Assembly (NCBI GenBank): GCA_004843345.1 | Contig: CP039460.1 | Location: 1,042,921-1,106,920, forward strand | Length of the DNA: 64,000 nt | DNA from: Acetobacteraceae bacterium | GTDB lineage: Bacteria; Pseudomonadota; Alphaproteobacteria; Acetobacterales; Acetobacteraceae | Reading direction: 5' to 3' | Shown: positions 5,349 to 37,690 of the stretch, one piece after another | Layout: each line of letters starts with the position of its first letter | How positions within the stretch are numbered: position 1 is the first letter of the stretch | Made by a program: the position numbers and the translations under genes | The notes under the pieces: generated by a model | The model's database searches: none | The model's input: only the letters and a program-made list of their open reading frames with translations | Told to the model about the DNA's origin: nothing

Positions 5349-6008
5349 TTATGATTTTTTTGCCGTTAAGGGAGTTAGCGGTGGAAGATCTGCAATTTTC
5401 GTTTCGGCGAGGCATTTCTGAAAATTTTCAAGTACAGATTTATTATGTCCAAATTTCAAATCCATTGAATCCCCCGAAGAGAGGACGATTTCTACATTGT
5501 TATTTTGGTAAAAGGATTGGAGCATTTTTCTTAAATCTTCTTTTTCAATCGGAGCAATCCAAGTGTTTGGAGCCTCTGCCTGCATTTGGAATTTTTTAGA
5601 ATAGTCTCTAGATCGGAGGGTCATTTCACTTTTTTCGCCTAAGGCAACTTGCCATGCTGGGTTGATTGTTGAAATTTCTAAGCCACTTGCTGGATGGATA
5701 GAATCTCCTAGGAGATAGCTTGTTAAGCTTAAAGCAATTTTAATTTTTGTACGGTCAAAAGCGTAGCTTGAGAAAAAAGCTGGAAGTTCAAAATGAACCA
5801 GTCCGCACCCATTGGTGAGAGGGGATTTTTCGTTTTTTATTGGTGGCGCATAATGACGGTTGCTTGACCAGCCTGTTTTTAAACTGGTGAGGCTGGTTTT
5901 AACATGATGCCACTCTTCTGGCGGTGCCGCGCAAGAAGAGATGCTAGAAAAAAAGGTGAAAACACAAAAAAGAGAGAACAAAAAACAGGTGCGAAAAATT
6001 TTTCTCAT
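5349..6008 (-). CDS. Secreted or lipid-anchored protein of unknown function
   Basis: I do not recognise this family. I start it at the ATG giving M-R-K-I-F-R-T because AGGAG lies just upstream; the open frame continues 16 codons further. The 219-residue product begins with a signal peptide (hydrophobic run F-L-F-S-L-F-C-V-F-T-F-F) ending in I-S-S-C-A-A, which fits either a lipobox or ordinary cleavage. The mature part has no transmembrane helix and few cysteines, and is probably mostly beta. The gene stands alone, 52 bases from the divergent HAD phosphatase frame. Confidence 0.6.
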   Translation of the reverse strand: MRKIFRTCFLFSLFCVFTFFSSISSCAAPPEEWHHVKTSLTSLKTGWSSNRHYAPPIKNEKSPLTNGCGLVHFELPAFFSSYAFDRTKIKIALSLTSYLLGDSIHPASGLEISTINPAWQVALGEKSEMTLRSRDYSKKFQMQAEAPNTWIAPIEKEDLRKMLQSFYQNNNVEIVLSSGDSMDLKFGHNKSVLENFQKCLAETKIADLPPLTPLTAKKS

Positions 6009-6121
6009 TTCTTCTCCTGCGTGCTTTTTTCTAGAGAAAAGCATTATAGTCCTCAATGGGAATAATTTAAATCACCTTTATCTTAGGATAAGGCTTATTC
6101 GTGCAAAAAGAGGTTAATCAT

Positions 6122-28775: not shown

Positions 28776-29681
28776 TTATTTTTTAACGATATTTGCGGTG
28801 ACAGGCAGGGTTGAAATGCTGGCTGGGTCTTGCGCGTAATTATAAGGAACGACCATAAGGGTGGCGTTCCCATTAAGCGCAGAGGTTGTCACCATATCGG
28901 CATCGATGGTTTTCATGAGAAGATCCACGATTTCTTTTTGGCTTAGCCCTGAATCTAAGCGCATCGTCTCAATACTTTCTTTTAATCCGACAGCAATGGC
29001 ATTTCGCTGTTCGGCAATTCCTTCCCCTTGAAGGCGTTTACTTTCTTTCTGGGCTTCGGCAACGCCGATGAGTTTAATTTTTTGAGCATCGGCAAGATTT
29101 TGCGCCGCATCTTTTTCGGCTCTTGCGGCAGTAACGGCATTGAGGGCTTTTTCGACGGCATCTGGCGGAATAGGCTGTTCGACTAATACCGTATCTAAGA
29201 CCATGCCGCTATTTTGCGCAACATTGGACATGTCGTGCTGAACACCTTGCGCAATCGTGTTTTTATCGCTGTAAAGCTCTTCAAAATTTTTGGTGGAAGC
29301 GATTTGGCGCAGGTCATTTTCAATTTGCCAAAGCAGATTTTCAATAGGGTTGTCATTGTTATAGACGAAGGCAAAACTGTCAACGACATGAAAACGTGCG
29401 ACCCATTTGATTTCAACAAAGACATTATCTTTTGTTTTGCATTTGGAGCTTCGCTCTATTTGCTGTTGACGTAAATCTATAATGGCACGGATTTTCATAA
29501 AAAAGGGAATAAGGAAATGGAATCCCGATTGCCAGACATTTCGGCTCGGTGTCCCTAAAAATTCAATTACAGCCGATTTTTGGCCATTGAGAACAATGAA
29601 GCTTTTCCAAAGAATGAAGAGCGTGAAAAAGATGAGAAGGAAGAAAAAAATGGCGGATAAACCAATTAAGTCTGCTGGCAT
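28776..29681 (-). CDS. SPFH/band 7 (stomatin-prohibitin) membrane protein
   Basis: A 301-residue SPFH protein. One N-terminal transmembrane segment (about residues 6-28) leads into the band 7 domain (V-I-E-F-L-G, G-F-H-F-L-I-P-F, D-L-R-Q-Q). A charged, coiled-coil Ala/Glu-rich region follows (about 185-240, A-A-R-A-E-K-D-A-A-Q). Such proteins form large ring scaffolds in membranes, often with NfeD or FtsH partners. No NfeD gene is adjacent, so the partner is unknown. It is convergent with radA. Confidence 0.85.
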   Translation of the reverse strand: MPADLIGLSAIFFFLLIFFTLFILWKSFIVLNGQKSAVIEFLGTPSRNVWQSGFHFLIPFFMKIRAIIDLRQQQIERSSKCKTKDNVFVEIKWVARFHVVDSFAFVYNNDNPIENLLWQIENDLRQIASTKNFEELYSDKNTIAQGVQHDMSNVAQNSGMVLDTVLVEQPIPPDAVEKALNAVTAARAEKDAAQNLADAQKIKLIGVAEAQKESKRLQGEGIAEQRNAIAVGLKESIETMRLDSGLSQKEIVDLLMKTIDADMVTTSALNGNATLMVVPYNYAQDPASISTLPVTANIVKK

Positions 29682-29839: not shown

Positions 29840-29867
29840 GTATGATTTTTATTAAAAAATATCATAC
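29840..29867. promoter_or_regulatory. NikR operator upstream of the TonB-dependent receptor
   Basis: GTATGA at 29840-29845, then exactly 16 bases, then TCATAC at 29862-29867. This equals the known Escherichia coli NikR operator GTATGA-N16-TCATAC. The spacer is almost entirely A/T. The site ends 42 bases before the receptor start codon, and nikR is 2.4 kb away. Nickel-loaded NikR is expected to block transcription here. Confidence 0.9.
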
Positions 29868-29909
29868 ATATATTTTAGGTAATGCTTCACTGTTTTTAGA
29901 ATGTTTTGA

Positions 29910-32246
29910 ATGGCTTCTTTTCACGCTCTTTATGAAAAATGCTTTGGCAGGAAATGCTCTTGTTCAAAGGCACATGCGCATCGGGCAGAGGTTTCTTTTG
30001 CTGCGGATGCGGTGATTAGCCGTAAGAAAAGGATTTTAGGCGTTGTGGCTTGTTTGCTTTCGCTGCCTTTGGGAGCAAATGCGGAAGAGGTAGAGAAAGA
30101 AAGTCGCCCTCCTATGGAACGGGTTCGGGTAAAAGGGGTTGCCAGTAAGGTTGCCGATGAGGTGAGTGGCACAAAGGTTAATTATCTCAACAAAGAGTCT
30201 AATTTTGGCCCTTTAGGTAAAGTTGAGCTTAAAAAAGTACCTTTTTCTGTGATGCAGACGGGGCATGATGTGCTTGAAAATGAGCAGGTTCGAACGATGG
30301 ATGAGGCATTTGAATATATGCCTTCTGTTCAGCTTCAGAAATATGCAACGCCAAGCCCCCAGATGGTCAATAGAGGGTATCAAGCTGATATTGTCGCCAA
30401 TTCCCGTATTGACGGCTTTAACGTGCGCCTTGGTTCGCCTTATACGAGTGAACAATTTCAGTCTATGACGGTTTTGAACGGTGCTGCTGGCTCAATGTAT
30501 GGGCCGGAAAGTCCTTCGGGTGTTGTTGATATGGTTTTGAAGCGTCCAACAAAAAGTCCATTTTTTAATTTTAATTTTGGGTATGATTCGAATGGTGCGC
30601 CGCTTGAATCTTTGGATACGTCTTTGGGAAAAGGCCCTGTTAAGCTTCGTTTTAACTATTTGAATCAGACAGGGCAGTCTTATGTTTCAACATCGGACAT
30701 GTGGCGTAATTTATACAGCGCAGATATTGATATTCAACTGACAAAGCGGATTAAATTTGAGCTAGATGCAGGGCAGTATAATGTCGGCTATTACGGTATG
30801 CCAGCTGGTTTTGCTTATAGTGGGGATACGGCCTTGCCAGATGCGCCCGATCCAACCAAAGCAGGCTATGGACAGAATCAAGGCGGATATACGGCCTCCA
30901 GCACGTATGGCATGGAAAAACTCTTTATTGATATTAGCCCGCACTGGAAATTAAAGCTTGGTGGCTCTTATGATAGCAGCACCCGTCATCTTCATACGAT
31001 TACGAATACACTTTATAATGCGGGATCTAGTGGTTGTTTGGGCGCAGGCGTGGTTGGAGAGGCTTGTTATTCGCAGGTGATGGCGGCTTCAAAATCCAAT
31101 AATTATGATGGGGTTTGGAGTAATTATGCTTATCTAAATGGTGATTTCCATATAGGCCCTATCACACATCATATCAATCTTGGGACAAATGGCTATAACT
31201 CAACCTTGACCCAGCCTAATTTCGCACAGGCGAGCAGAGATTACGGCATAACCGGGTTAAATAATCCGATTGTTCAGCCTTTGGGTTATGTGCCGAAACA
31301 ATATGGGGGAAACCATGAAGGGAGCATGACTCAGCAGCAGGCCTTTATTTTCGGCGACAGCATGGATATTGGCAAGCAATTCACTATTATGGGACAATTT
31401 TCGGAAAGCTGGATTACAGAAGCGAACTATGCCAAGGCAGCGCCTTATGGGAAATCGGGTGGTACATCGGCCAATGGTGTTTTTTCGCCTTCTGTTGGTT
31501 TTACCTTTCACCCGAGAACGAATTTGAATTTTTATTTTAACTGGGGAAATTCTATTCAGCCTGGCCCAGAAGCCCCTGGCAATACGGCCAATGAAAATGC
31601 TATTTTAAGCCCGGTACGCTCTTGGCAATATGAGGGCGGCGTGAAATATACATGGCGGAAGCGCTTGCAAATCAATTTGGATGGATTTTCGATGTCCCGT
31701 CCTTATGCATTTTCCAATCCAGATAATATGGTGGATGGTCTTCCTGTTTACGGTTATTACGGTGCGCAGAATGATTACGGTATTGAATATCAAATGTCAG
31801 GCGCTTTAACGAAAGATATTTCGATTTATGGCGGATTTACATGGGATCATGCACGTCTTACCGATACGGGTAATCCGCTTTCTTCAGATAAGAAAGTTAC
31901 AGGCGTGCCAGAATGGGCTTCGGATTTCTCATTAGATTGGCATCCTGTTTTTTTGCATGGTGTAGCCTTTAACTCGAATATTCATTATGTGGGCACCCGT
32001 CAGGCCAATGTGTACAACACCACGCAGGCAGGGGAATATGTGACGCTTAATTTAGGGGTGCGTTATGCAACGCAAATTAGCGGACATAAGCTCGTTGTGC
32101 GTGGCAATGTGGATAATGTCACAGGGCAGAATTACTGGGATTCCGCCTTTGCCGATTCAACAGATGGGGCGGCAAAGGGCGCAACCTACAGCGCTGTTCT
32201 TGGAACGCCAAGAACATGGCGCATCACCGCCTCCGTCTATTTTTAA
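29910..32246 (+). CDS. TonB-dependent outer-membrane receptor, probably for a nickel complex
   Basis: A 778-residue TonB-dependent receptor. The plug domain (about residues 85-210) shows N-R-G-Y, Y-G-P-E-S-P-S-G-V-V-D and L-K-R-P-T, and the barrel ends with an aromatic Y-F. Such receptors take up metal chelates through the outer membrane with TonB-ExbBD energy. Its promoter carries a perfect NikR operator and it converges on nikR-nikABCDE, so a nickel complex is the best guess; the ligand is inferred. The first 40 residues are odd: a Cys/His-rich stretch (K-C-F-G-R-K-C-S-C-S-K-A-H-A-H) precedes the apparent signal peptide. A later GTG at about 30011 could be the true start; neither has a good ribosome-binding site. 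Confidence 0.85.
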   Translation: MASFHALYEKCFGRKCSCSKAHAHRAEVSFAADAVISRKKRILGVVACLLSLPLGANAEEVEKESRPPMERVRVKGVASKVADEVSGTKVNYLNKESNFGPLGKVELKKVPFSVMQTGHDVLENEQVRTMDEAFEYMPSVQLQKYATPSPQMVNRGYQADIVANSRIDGFNVRLGSPYTSEQFQSMTVLNGAAGSMYGPESPSGVVDMVLKRPTKSPFFNFNFGYDSNGAPLESLDTSLGKGPVKLRFNYLNQTGQSYVSTSDMWRNLYSADIDIQLTKRIKFELDAGQYNVGYYGMPAGFAYSGDTALPDAPDPTKAGYGQNQGGYTASSTYGMEKLFIDISPHWKLKLGGSYDSSTRHLHTITNTLYNAGSSGCLGAGVVGEACYSQVMAASKSNNYDGVWSNYAYLNGDFHIGPITHHINLGTNGYNSTLTQPNFAQASRDYGITGLNNPIVQPLGYVPKQYGGNHEGSMTQQQAFIFGDSMDIGKQFTIMGQFSESWITEANYAKAAPYGKSGGTSANGVFSPSVGFTFHPRTNLNFYFNWGNSIQPGPEAPGNTANENAILSPVRSWQYEGGVKYTWRKRLQINLDGFSMSRPYAFSNPDNMVDGLPVYGYYGAQNDYGIEYQMSGALTKDISIYGGFTWDHARLTDTGNPLSSDKKVTGVPEWASDFSLDWHPVFLHGVAFNSNIHYVGTRQANVYNTTQAGEYVTLNLGVRYATQISGHKLVVRGNVDNVTGQNYWDSAFADSTDGAAKGATYSAVLGTPRTWRITASVYF

Positions 32247-32719: not shown

Positions 32720-33487
32720 TTATTTTATAGGAAAAGGGGGCAAAACGGCTTGCGAGAGTAAAAGACTGACAGGATGCGTCATTTTCGCTTGAAAATCTGT
32801 AATTTCTTCAACAATTTCGCCCTTTTCCATGATGAGCGCCCGATCGGAAAATTTTCGAACAAGACGTATATCATGTGTTACGAAAAGATAACTCATTTTT
32901 TGTTTTTTTTGAAGTTTTTTGAGGAGGTGGAGCGTTTCTACTTGTAAATGAAGATCTAAATTGGAAACAGCTTCATCTAAAAGGAGGATTTTTGGATTTA
33001 GAGCCAGCGCTCTTGCAATACAAATTCGCTGAAGCTGGCCGCCGCTGATTTCAGAAGGGTGTCTGTTAAGGAAGTCTTCTGGCAGTTTTACAAGCACAAG
33101 CAGCTCTTTGACACGGGCGGTTCGTTCTTCTTTGGTTAGGTTTGAGAGATAGAGAAGCGGTTCTTCTATAATGGATTTGAGGGAGAAACGCGCATTTACA
33201 GCGGAAAGAGAATCCTGAAAAATAAGCTGGGTATTCTGATAAAAATCTTTTTCGGTTTGGCGGTTCATGTTTGCAAGATTTTGACCTTCAAAAAAGATTT
33301 CGCCAGTGCTGGGCTTTTCCAGCCTCATCAGCAGGCGCATTAAAGTGCTTTTGCCACAGCCGCTTTGCCCTAAAAGCGCAAGTGTTTCCCCTGCATGAAG
33401 TGAAAAAGAAATATTTTTCAAAACGTTTTTGAGGCCGTTTTTCTGGGGATAGGTTTTTGAGAGATTGGAAACTGTAAGCAGGGTCAA
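32720..33487 (-). CDS. nikE: Nickel import ATP-binding protein NikE
   Basis: A 255-residue oligopeptide-type ABC ATPase. Walker A is G-Q-S-G-C-G-K-S-T near residue 39, the signature is I-S-G-G-Q-L-Q-R, and Walker B is I-L-L-L-D-E-A with S-N-L-D-L, the L-D-E-A-V-S-N-L-D form shared with NikE. With NikD it powers nickel import through NikBC. Its start overlaps the nikD stop by four bases, indicating translational coupling. Confidence 0.9.
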
Positions 33488-34284
33488 GGCGTTTTCTCGT
33501 CATCTAAGGTTAGGCCGTAAAGGGAGAGATGCGCTTTTAGTAAATGTTTTGTGACCTTGGCTTGAGGCTGTTTAAAAAGGGTTAAAACATCGGTTTGTTC
33601 AACAATTTTACCTTTTTCTAAGATAACAACGTCATCGGCGAGGGCTGCGACAACGGATAGATCATGGGTAATGAGTAAAATGCCAAGCCCGTGTTTTTCA
33701 GTGAGTTTTTTAAGGGTTTGCAGGATTTGAGACTGTATAATCAGATCAAGTTCGCTGGTAGGCTCATCTGCGATTAAAAAGGATGTTTCACTCAAAAGGG
33801 CGAGCGCAATCATTATGCGCTGTAACTGTCCACCGCTTAATTCAAAAGCGTAGGACGTTAAAATTTCTTCTGCATTTTCAAGACCTGCGGCATACAGGGC
33901 TTTGCAGATTTTAATTTCGGCTGTTTCGTCCCATTTATCAAGTGCTTTTAAGGTTTCAATGGCGTGATAGTGCATGTTCCGTAAAGGATTAAAGGCGCTG
34001 CGGGGATTTTGCAGAATACTGGCGACAATTTTTCCTCGTAAGTTCTCGGGGTGTATTGGGTTTCCATTAAAGGAAAGATTTGTGTAGCTGGCACTGAGGT
34101 TCGAGGGAAGTGTTCCTAAAATGCCTAGGCTTGCCATTGTTTTCCCAGAGCCACTCGCACCGACCAAGGCCGTCACTTTACCAGCGTGGAGGGTAAGCGA
34201 GAAATCTTCAACGATGTTTTGTTTTTTGCTAAGTGTGTTGAGAGAAATGTTAAGATTTTTGATGGACAAGGTGTTGGAGGTCAA
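33484..34284 (-). CDS. nikD: Nickel import ATP-binding protein NikD
   Basis: A 266-residue ABC ATPase, paired with NikE. Walker A is G-A-S-G-S-G-K-T, the signature L-S-G-G-Q-L-Q-R-I and Walker B F-L-I-A-D-E-P-T-S-E-L-D are all intact. The G-K-T-M rather than G-K-S-T form at Walker A resembles NikD/DppD members. It overlaps nikC by four bases. Assignment between NikD and DppD rests on the neighbouring NikA and NikR. Confidence 0.9.
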   Translation of the reverse strand: MTSNTLSIKNLNISLNTLSKKQNIVEDFSLTLHAGKVTALVGASGSGKTMASLGILGTLPSNLSASYTNLSFNGNPIHPENLRGKIVASILQNPRSAFNPLRNMHYHAIETLKALDKWDETAEIKICKALYAAGLENAEEILTSYAFELSGGQLQRIMIALALLSETSFLIADEPTSELDLIIQSQILQTLKKLTEKHGLGILLITHDLSVVAALADDVVILEKGKIVEQTDVLTLFKQPQAKVTKHLLKAHLSLYGLTLDDEKTP

Positions 34285-35123
34285 TGGCTTTCCCCTTTTT
34301 TTGTGAAATGGGGATCAAGCTGATCCCGCAGGGCATCTCCTAAAAGATTAAACCCCATAATGCTGAGAAAAAGACAAAGACCAGGCCAGAAAATGAGCAA
34401 GGGCGCTGTTCGGATATAGGGAAAGGCTTCGCTAATCATGACACCCCATTCAGCGGTTGGAGGTTTTACGCCTAGTCCCAAAAAAGAAAGACCTGCAACA
34501 TGTAAAAGAATATGTCCAATATCCAGCGAAGCGAGGACGGTAATTTGTGAAAAAATCATTGGCAGAAGATGCTTCACAAAAATTTGAAAAGGGTTAGCGC
34601 CACTGATTTTGGCAGCGAGGAGGAATTCCTTGTAGCGTGCAGAAAGCACAAAACTGCGGATAAGACGTGCGTACCAAGGCCAATGGGAAAGGGCAATCGC
34701 TAAAATCACATTTTCGATGCCTGTTCCCAGAGCACCAATTAAAAATAAAGAAAGGATAAAGGTCGGAAAAATCATGCAAATATCGGTTAAGCGCATGAAA
34801 ATTTGATCGAGGATACCGCCAAAGAATCCAGCAATGCCTCCAATGAGAAATCCGAGCAGCAGAATAAGACTTAAGGCAGCTAAAACGGCGCTGAGAGAAA
34901 GCCGGGTTGCCGCAATAAGGCGAGAAAGAATATCTCTTCCTAAAGGATCTGTTCCGAGAAAATGCGTGCTGCTTGGCGGAGCAAGGCGCAGGTGCAGATC
35001 GATTGTGTCAGGCGAATAGGGCGTGATCCAGTTGCCAAAAAGGGCGGCTAAAGCAAAAGGAAGCAAGAGAAGGCAGGCGCAGAGAATGGAAAGATTTTTT
35101 CCTTTGCAAGAAAGCGGAATCAT
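34281..35123 (-). CDS. nikC: Nickel transport permease NikC
   Basis: A 280-residue inner-membrane permease of the oligopeptide/nickel type, with about six transmembrane helices. The N-terminal [15 protein letters not shown] motif and the cytoplasmic EAA-like loop A-A-K-I-S-G-A-N-P are clear. It pairs with NikB to form the membrane channel. It overlaps nikB and nikD by four bases each. Confidence 0.9.
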
Positions 35124-36064
35124 TTTTTGACCTCTTGGGCGGTCTGCTCACGGGGATCAATCCAAGCGCAGAAAAGATCAACGCATAAATTGCAGAGGAT
35201 AAAAATCAAAACCATAAAAAGCGTGAAACATTGGATAACAGGATAATCCCGATTTAAAATGGCAGAGACGGCAAAACGTCCAAGCCCAGGCCAAGAAAAG
35301 ATGCTTTCAATAATGAGCGTTCCAGCGATAAGTTCAGCGATATACATGCCAAGCGCATTGATCATTGGAAGGGAGGCATTAAAGAAAATATGATTTTTTT
35401 CTATTTTGTTTTTCGAAAGTCCCCTCAGGCGTGCATAGAGGACATGGCGCTGTCCTGAGACTTCTAACATGCTTCCTCGAAGAAGGCGTGCATTGATGGC
35501 TAAAGACATAAAGGCAACAGTAAAAGAGGGCATGATTAGGCTAGAAATCCCCGTCTTTCCCATAGGTGGAAGTAAATGCAAAGAGAGTGGAAACAGCCAG
35601 ATAAGTAAAAGGGCTAACCAAAAATTAGGGATGGAAACGCCCAGCAGGGAAATAAAGCGGATAAGGTGGTCTGGCCATTGATTGGGGTATCTGGCGGAAA
35701 GAATACCAAGGGGGATAGAAAAAAGAAGGGTTAAGAGGAGGGCAACGCCCGCAAGCTCCAAGGTGGCAGGCAGAAAATAAAGCAAATCCTTAAAAACAGG
35801 TCTGCCTGTTGCAAAAGAAAGGCCAAAATCCCCTTGAACAGCATGGCCGAGCCAATGAAGATATTGGGTGAGTAAAGGGCGATTCAGCCCAAGCATTTGA
35901 CGTGTTGTTTCCAGCGCCTCGTTTGTTGGCGGAATATTAGAGAGGCGTAAATAATCCATCGCAGGATCACTGGGGCCTAAATGAATAAGTAAAAAAATGA
36001 ATAAAGAGGCGAGAAAAAGCATGAAGGGCGCAAGAGCAAGGCGCTTTAAGGTGAAGTAAAGCAT
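35120..36064 (-). CDS. nikB: Nickel transport permease NikB
   Basis: A 314-residue permease, the same length as I recall for E. coli NikB and very similar along its length: [31 protein letters not shown] and [12 protein letters not shown]. The start at 36064 is the ATG just beyond the nikA stop; a TTG ten codons upstream, inside nikA, is less likely. About six transmembrane helices are visible. Confidence 0.93.
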
Positions 36065-36065
36065 C

Positions 36066-37634
36066 TTAATTTTTGCTCTCTTGGAGCTTTTCAAAGGGAA
36101 TTTCCATCATGGTCGCACCAAAATCAATTTTTTGGATTTTGTGATTGGCAACGGCCATTGCCCGAACATAGCTGATAGGCAGGTAAATGGCATCTTGATG
36201 CAGGCGTGTGAGAATGTCTGTATAAAGCCGCTGACGCTCGGTTTCATTTTGGGAAACCAGCACTTCTTGGATTTCTTTATCAATTTCTTTTTTGTCAGGC
36301 AGGCCAAGTTGCGCCTGATAATCTGCGTGAGAGGGAGCGCGCATAGAGCTTAATAAGGCTGCGGGGGCAAAGGGCGCTCCCAAAATCTCTTCAAAAATGA
36401 GTCCAAAATTGCCTTCCCGCTGGCGTGCAAAAACACTGCTTTCCTCTTCGCCAATCAACTGGAGATCGATACCAATTTCTCTGCAGTTCCCTTGGATAAT
36501 CTCCGCCATAGATTTCATAATGGCATCTGTGCCGACAAAAGAGAGTTCTAAGATAAGTTTTTGACCGTTTTTTTGACGGATTTCGCCTTTTTTAGTTTGC
36601 TTCCAGCCTGCTTCATCCAAAAGCGCCGCAGCTTGATTAGGATCATAAAGATAGGGTTTTAAATCAATATTGGCATAAGGGATTTCTTTTGAAAAAAGCG
36701 TATCGGCTCTGCTTTGCGTTTGGTAAAGAACCGCAGATAGCAGGGTGTCTTTATCCACGGCATGGTTGAGCGCTTCGCGCACTTTTTGCTCAGCAGTTGG
36801 TCCTTTTTGACTGTTTAAAACAATCATTAACGTGCCCAAAGGAGGGGAAAGTTCTGTTTGATATTGGTTTGAGTGTTTTAACTGCTCAAACATATCTGGC
36901 GTTAAAGGGCCATTTGTCCCTTGAACCAGATCCACTTGTCCCGTTTCTAAAGCGATTGAACGGCTATTAGGATCAGGAATGACCTTTACATTGATTTCTT
37001 TGAAATCTGCTTTCTTTCCCCAATAAGTTTCGTTCCGGCGGAAAAGATCATTTTCGCCTAATTTTGTTTGGGAAAGAATCCATGGGCCAGTGCCAATAGG
37101 TTGAAGAATGCCGTCTTTTGTTCCGCCATTTTTAAACTGGGAGAGGGCAATGAATTTAAAAGGACGGGGAAAGGATAAATCTTCTAAAAAGGGGTAATAG
37201 CTGTCTTTGAGCTTTATTTGAATTTGAAAGGGGGAGAGGATTTTTACCGATTCAATTTGATTGATCGCTTCGAGCCAGTTATGGCGTATTCTATTGGCTA
37301 AAATGGCATCAAAATTGGCTTTAGCCGCCTTTGCATCAAAAATTTCACCATTGGAGAATTTAACATCGTCCCTCAGGTTAAAAAGATAGGTTTTTCGATC
37401 TGGAGAGATGTTCCAGCTTTTTGTAAGCCAGGGGTGGATTTTGCCGTCTTTCCCAAATTTCACAAGCGGTTCATAAACCATATCTTGGGCAAACATTTGG
37501 TTGGGCGTGTAAAGGTGGGGATTAAGCGGGCCGACATTGACAGGCCAAGAAAAATTTAGCGTTTGCGCCTGTGCATTTGAAAACACACTCCAAAAAAGTG
37601 CGATAGCGCAGAGAGTAAAAATCTTACGGTTCAT
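36066..37634 (-). CDS. nikA: Nickel-binding periplasmic protein NikA
   Basis: A 522-residue exported solute-binding protein with a signal peptide ending A-Q-A. It shares long identical stretches with E. coli Nik[15 protein letters not shown], then V-Y-E-P-L-V-K, A-Y/D-Y-P-F-L-type segments, P-I-G-T-G-P-W-I-L, and [13 protein letters not shown]. This separates it from dipeptide-binding relatives. NikA delivers nickel, in E. coli as a histidine complex, to NikBC. The ATG at 37634 is preferred over a GTG three codons upstream. A degenerate NikR operator lies 25 bases before it. Confidence 0.95.
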
Positions 37635-37658
37635 TTTAGGCACGCTTAATAAAAGAAA

Positions 37659-37690
37659 AGATATGCTATTTATAAAAAAACAACATATCT
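37659..37690. promoter_or_regulatory. Degenerate NikR operator upstream of nikA
   Basis: AGATATG and CATATCT form a 7-base inverted repeat. The core TATG-N18-CATA has the same spacing as GTATGA-N16-TCATAC, but both outer bases of each half-site differ. The A/T-rich spacer resembles that of the site at 29840. It is expected to bind NikR more weakly. Confidence 0.7.

Follow-up and report, generated by a model that had tools for sequence, protein, structure and literature searches.

A NikR-type operator sequence before a siderophore-type TonB-dependent receptor and a predicted NikR regulon in Acetobacteraceae

To our knowledge, the passage of nickel across the outer membrane has been established by experiment in only a few bacteria, mainly Helicobacter. 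The locus analysed here, a 64,000-nucleotide stretch of an Acetobacteraceae genome (the window), contains a palindrome in front of the gene for a TonB-dependent receptor (TBDT1) that faces a nikR gene. This raises the question of whether the palindrome is the operator of the adjacent NikR, and whether the receptor imports nickel; a reading made from the sequence alone (the sequence-only reading) had proposed both.

The palindrome, the receptor and the nik cluster

The palindrome, GTATGATTTTTATTAAAAAATATCATAC, spans 28 bp with exact GTATGA and TCATAC half-sites, exactly 16 bp between them and 12 of its 14 pairs symmetric, and it leaves 42 nt between its last base and the ATG of the receptor gene (Table 1), in agreement with what the sequence-only reading had described. 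The identity with the E. coli NikR operator, which that reading had also claimed, is borne out by the published GTATGA-N16-TCATAC (PMC7055735). With this sequence in the promoter region of a putative nickel gene, the site falls within the E. coli type, and it also fits the longer form of the enterobacterial signal, GTATGAT-N13/14-ATCATAC (PMC545781), with a spacer of N14. In a motif search it was the sole match without mismatch both in the 64-kb window and in the 2.13-Mb genome. Based on half-site frequencies in ~130 kb of the window's genome, a whole genome is expected to contain ~0.056 perfect sites by chance, a 64-kb stretch 0.0017 and a 200-bp promoter 5e-6. Matches with up to three mismatches were at chance level in the window (16 found versus 13.6 expected); thus, only exact or near-exact, AT-spaced sites carry meaning, and the low-stringency counts in the window were discarded. 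On the + strand, a scan for promoters detected no full sigma-70 match at the operator, so that the repression geometry is a predicted one. A plausible TATATT hexamer, picked out by eye at 29869-29874 directly downstream of the operator, would place the operator over the core promoter.

Table 1. Receptor, putative operators and nik genes in the window (strand "." for palindromes)
Feature	Coordinates	Strand	Evidence
Putative NikR-type operator, GTATGAT-N14-ATCATAC	29840..29867	.	Exact motif match; conserved in the sister species at L060:5896-5923
TBDT1, TonB-dependent receptor, 778 aa, siderophore-receptor type; proposed nickel-complex importer	29910..32246	+	Pfam PF00593, PF07715
nikR, nickel-responsive ribbon-helix-helix regulator, 133 aa	32265..32666	-	TIGR02793, 197.4 bits, above cut-off 175.45
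nikE-like ATPase	32720..33487	-	Best matches NF007739, TIGR02769, slightly below cut-off
nikD-like ATPase	33484..34284	-	Best match TIGR02770, 295.2 bits versus cut-off 318.7
nikC permease	34281..35123	-	NF007738, 408.7 bits, above cut-off 335
nikB permease	35120..36094	-	NF007677, 487.9 bits, above cut-off 433
nikA nickel-binding protein	36066..37643	-	TIGR02294, 681.8 bits, above cut-off 393
Weak putative NikR operator, ATATGC-N16-ACATAT, directly before nikA	37661..37688	.	TATG/CATA core kept, 4 mismatches

TBDT1 contains plug (PF07715) and beta-barrel (PF00593) domains, both above cut-off, and an N-terminus that is signal-peptide-like by eye only, and on these features it belongs to the TonB-dependent transporters. 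Its best family was TIGR01783, although the score (199.5 bits) is below the cut-off of 223.5, and the nearest PDB sequences were those of the siderophore receptors FemA and BauA.

Convergent with the receptor gene across an 18-bp gap, nikR closes a nikABCDE-R cluster, in which nikE, nikD, nikC, nikB and nikA lie upstream of it on the same strand. The encoded NikR, the only one in the window's genome, contains the RHH (PF01402) and NikR_C (PF08753) domains of the enterobacterial type above cut-off and can be aligned over its full length with E. coli NikR (1q5v). In the alignment, the nickel ligands H78/H89/H91/C97 correspond to H76/H87/H89/C95 of E. coli, and the MQRxTIT DNA-contact strand of the E. 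coli protein is kept (E. coli ligands and operator from PMC7055735). All five genes of the NikABCDE importer are found in the one cluster, with NikD and NikE slightly below their cut-offs; the true start of nikA is likely the ATG at 37634. The sequence-only reading had placed a nickel route across both membranes in this single locus. The NikABCDE assignments fit this, but the operator before nikA is much weaker than the one before the receptor, and no such site was found at the corresponding position in the sister species, where the nearest one precedes a HAD gene upstream of nikA. Urease is encoded in the window's genome, and neither a NiFe hydrogenase nor a NiCoT permease was found there. 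The urease regions of both species (L151, L152) have a G+C content of 29-31%, versus ~44% in the window, which suggests a foreign origin.

Conservation in the sister species and a predicted regulon

The comparison was made with G001, the one other species of the genus that was included. Its receptor orthologue, 79% identical to TBDT1, carries GTATGATTTTATTTTAAAAACATCATAT 44 nt before the ATG, and the operator is the best-conserved block in the pairwise alignment of the two receptor promoters, the remainder of which has diverged. The gene upstream of the site is stomatin-like in the window and an OprB porin gene in G001; because the upstream neighbour differs between the species while the site stays with the receptor, the receptor gene is the target to which the site belongs. 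This ruled out the divergent stomatin-like gene (28776-29681) as the main target. A search of relatives for the palindrome before orthologous receptors, which the sequence-only reading had called for, thus found it in G001 despite rearranged surroundings, and the locus has a NikR-type operator in a receptor promoter that is conserved in a relative, an arrangement of the FrpB4/NikH kind. Between the receptor gene and nikR, G001 also has a gene for a 2275-aa autotransporter-like protein with PATR repeats and a TetR-type regulator (L060:8653-15480), neither of which is at that place in the window.

A single-protein scan of the genome contigs gave no relatives of TBDT1. An alignment scan found only receptors with 32-38% identity in Gluconobacter, Asaia, Komagataeibacter, Novacetimonas and Acetobacter, with no NikR-type site before them within the flanks examined. 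Receptors more than 50% identical to TBDT1 were confined to this genus, so that the conservation of the site rests on two species. The window's genome encodes several TBDT1 paralogues (48-56% identical) without the site, and the other receptor paralogues examined had none in the 400 nt before their starts (best 3 to 5 mismatches). When the paralogues with predicted NikR control were compared column by column with the rest, three histidines beyond the N-terminal extension (H360, H362 and H469) were peculiar to TBDT1, too weak a signal for a metal site. This N-terminal extension, which lies before the signal peptide, is common to the TBDT1 proteins of the two species and the porin of G001 (29910-30050 in the window; L060:3896-4030 and 5968-6110 in G001) and has a CSC-x3-HxH pattern (FGKxCSCxxxHxH...SFAxDAV). 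The CSC-x3-HxH stretch is possibly a metal-binding leader, and the operator and leader in G001 look like a copied cassette.

A regulon search was carried out in both genomes with the pattern RTATGA-W16-TCATAY, using the reversed pattern as control. At up to three mismatches, 10 sites were found in the window's genome and 15 in G001, against 1 and 1 for the control, and every site at up to two mismatches in the two genomes (8/8) stands in front of genes linked to nickel or to uptake across the outer membrane. In the window's genome these are TBDT1, an OprB porin (952056) and an operon (401206) in which a second receptor (TBDT2, 56% identical to TBDT1) follows the gene for a periplasmic binding protein. 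In G001 they are TBDT1, the OprB orthologue, the orthologous binding protein (458489), a NiCoT nickel permease, the start of whose gene is overlapped by the site (770724), and the hypA/hydrogenase promoter. The last of these sites (748409; L134:7410) has exact E. coli half-sites and lies in the divergent promoter between hypABCDE, on its hypA side, and a hyc/hyf-like hydrogenase operon.

The OprB porin with a NikR-type site (L060:3896-5851 in G001, L006:3127-4980 in the window's genome) is encoded beside the receptor in G001 and ~120 kb away from it in the window's genome. The binding protein is BtuF/CeuE-like, with weak PF01497 similarity, and is an orphan without a permease of its own. A FecBCD operon was considered as its partner and dropped, because the sole FecBCD-type operon of each genome has no NikR-type site before it.

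Occurrence of the site in the family and class

Among 299 Acetobacteraceae genomes, 57 contained a NikR match and 18 a perfect site. The perfect sites were distributed over 14 of the 57 NikR carriers and 4 of the 242 other genomes (Fisher p = 3e-8, not corrected for relatedness), the latter four being close to what the reversed control pattern gives as background. The site lies within ~150 bp of nikR in eight genomes of the family, sometimes between nikR and a NiCoT gene, and in other genera of the family several perfect sites directly precede nikR or NiCoT genes. The class-wide search added only three perfect extended sites: the first between nikR and a HupE/UreJ gene (hupE), the second in a region that also contains a hypE-like gene, and the third within a gene cluster that has no relation to nickel, which was set aside as probably due to chance. 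By these associations in the family genera and the class, the link of the sequence with NikR and nickel genes extends far outside the genus.

Outer-membrane proteins are also found behind the site elsewhere in the family. It precedes an OprB porin gene in G257, and a DUF4198 gene followed by an OprB porin gene in G201. Two sites 25 bp apart, one exact and one with a single mismatch, stand before a TonB receptor gene in G239 (L138:6828-6908); the encoded receptor had no BLASTP match to TBDT1 at E 1e-5. This pair of sites suggests that NikR has recruited receptors more than once in the family. An exact and almost fully symmetric palindrome, GTATGACGAAATTTGAATTTCGTCATAC, lies upstream of the urease operon in G061 (L146:6128; C2:538127), a genome in which NikR was undetected.

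Proposed mechanism, alternatives and known systems

We consider it highly probable that the palindrome is the operator of the adjacent NikR, that nickel-bound NikR represses a receptor importing a nickel complex, and that both are part of a small NikR regulon. When cell nickel is sufficient, Ni-NikR tetramers would occupy both GTATGA half-sites, which are spaced by two turns of the helix immediately ahead of the receptor start, and so keep the receptor gene from being transcribed. When nickel is scarce, the repressor would leave and the receptor would be made; it would carry the nickel complex across the outer membrane to the periplasm, and NikA together with NikBCDE would take the periplasmic nickel inside for urease. 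The predicted regulon would comprise TBDT1, the second receptor with the orphan binding protein and the OprB-type porin, and in G001 additionally the NiCoT permease and the hyp/hydrogenase promoter. NikR control of the receptor, as put forward in the sequence-only reading, is supported by the adjacent nikR with all its ligands, by the conservation in G001 and by the motif before other nickel genes. Judged from these sequences, NikR probably binds the site and probably acts there as a repressor rather than an activator. Nickel as the predicted substrate is the weakest step, because the receptor groups by sequence with siderophore receptors. More tentatively, and with somewhat less than even confidence, the OprB-like porins could be channels for nickel or a nickel complex, forming with the siderophore-type receptor(s) an entry system under NikR that was recruited from iron-chelate and sugar parts. 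This reading draws on the operator staying with the porin gene at two places and on the OprB genes near sites in two other genera.

It could also be that NikR represses the receptor gene while the cargo is an iron-siderophore, a cobalt complex or a chelator that carries nickel incidentally. The closest families and structures, all siderophore receptors (FemA, BauA, pyochelin receptors), and the several site-less paralogues in the genome are in keeping with such a cargo, as is the H. pylori system NiuBDE, which carries cobalt and bismuth too (PMC5140060). However, the predicted co-regulation with nickel permeases, hyp/hydrogenase genes and a second receptor operon, seen over two species, fits nickel best, and the only FecBCD-type uptake system per genome has no site; on balance, a different cargo appears unlikely, though it deserves real weight.

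That some other regulator of outer-membrane proteins binds the palindrome, its match with the E. coli operator being coincidental, is very improbable. Such a regulator might account for the unusually AT-rich spacers in the sites of this genus and for the perfect site before the urease operon of G061, but it would leave unexplained the strong enrichment of perfect sites in NikR carriers, their position beside nikR and NiCoT genes outside this genus and the same sequence before a nikR-hupE pair elsewhere in the class, and the four sites in NikR-less genomes are at about the reversed-control background. The chance level of 3-mismatch matches in the window might further suggest a fortuitous palindrome in AT-rich promoter DNA. 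With ~0.06 perfect sites expected per genome, a site kept at the G001 orthologue while the flanking DNA diverged, and paralogues that have none, this explanation has a negligible probability.

On the favoured reading, that of NikR-controlled nickel import, the conserved predicted regulon of receptors, porin, binding protein and inner-membrane importers would provide, in an acetic-acid-type bacterium, a second system for outer-membrane nickel passage, and it points to clear candidates among the genes. A role in nickel transport may, it further suggests, be hidden among siderophore-type receptors and OprB porins, which annotation routinely assigns to iron or sugar transport.

Among the papers searched, none joined NikR and Acetobacteraceae, and no such receptor was found described in this family. 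The novelty claimed in the sequence-only reading is narrower than stated, since NikR-controlled TonB receptors, including one that accompanies NikABDE in H. hepaticus, are known (PMC3856676) and predicted nickel/cobalt receptors have been classified (PMC2771747): the bacterial group, the siderophore-type receptor and the OprB porin in a NikR regulon are new, and the arrangement itself is not. The first nickel transporter of the outer membrane to be described was FrpB4 of H. pylori; in H. mustelae this part is played by NikH, and in H. hepaticus homologues of NikABDE and NikH are regulated by NikR (PMC3856676). The present locus shares with FrpB4/FecA3 of H. pylori and NikH of H. mustelae the NikR control of a TonB-dependent receptor and the nickel supply for urease, both predicted here, and resembles H. 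hepaticus in pairing a Nik importer with such a receptor under putative NikR control. It differs in its operator, which is the enterobacterial GTATGA-N16-TCATAC rather than the TRTTA/TAWTA of Helicobacter, in its alphaproteobacterial host and in its receptor, which is of the siderophore type by family assignment. With E. coli NikR-nikABCDE it has in common the operator sequence, the NikR ligands, the contact strand and the nikABCDE-R order; however, the operator in E. coli governs nikABCDE, whereas here the nikA site is weak and the best operator stands before the gene for an outer-membrane receptor. Two porins, HopV and HopW, are also under NikR in H. pylori, and HopV has been linked to nickel (PMC5385501). 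Non-TonB outer-membrane beta-barrel proteins are thus common to that regulon and the one predicted here, although the present porin belongs to the OprB carbohydrate porins (PF04966), which are unrelated to the Hop proteins. Finally, H. pylori NikR controls a binding protein via ceuE/niuB (PMC5140060), and a BtuF/CeuE-like periplasmic binding protein under NikR-type control, predicted here, is shared with NiuBDE (CeuE/FecDE); the one described here is instead without a permease of its own and, in the window's genome, is followed by the gene for the second receptor.
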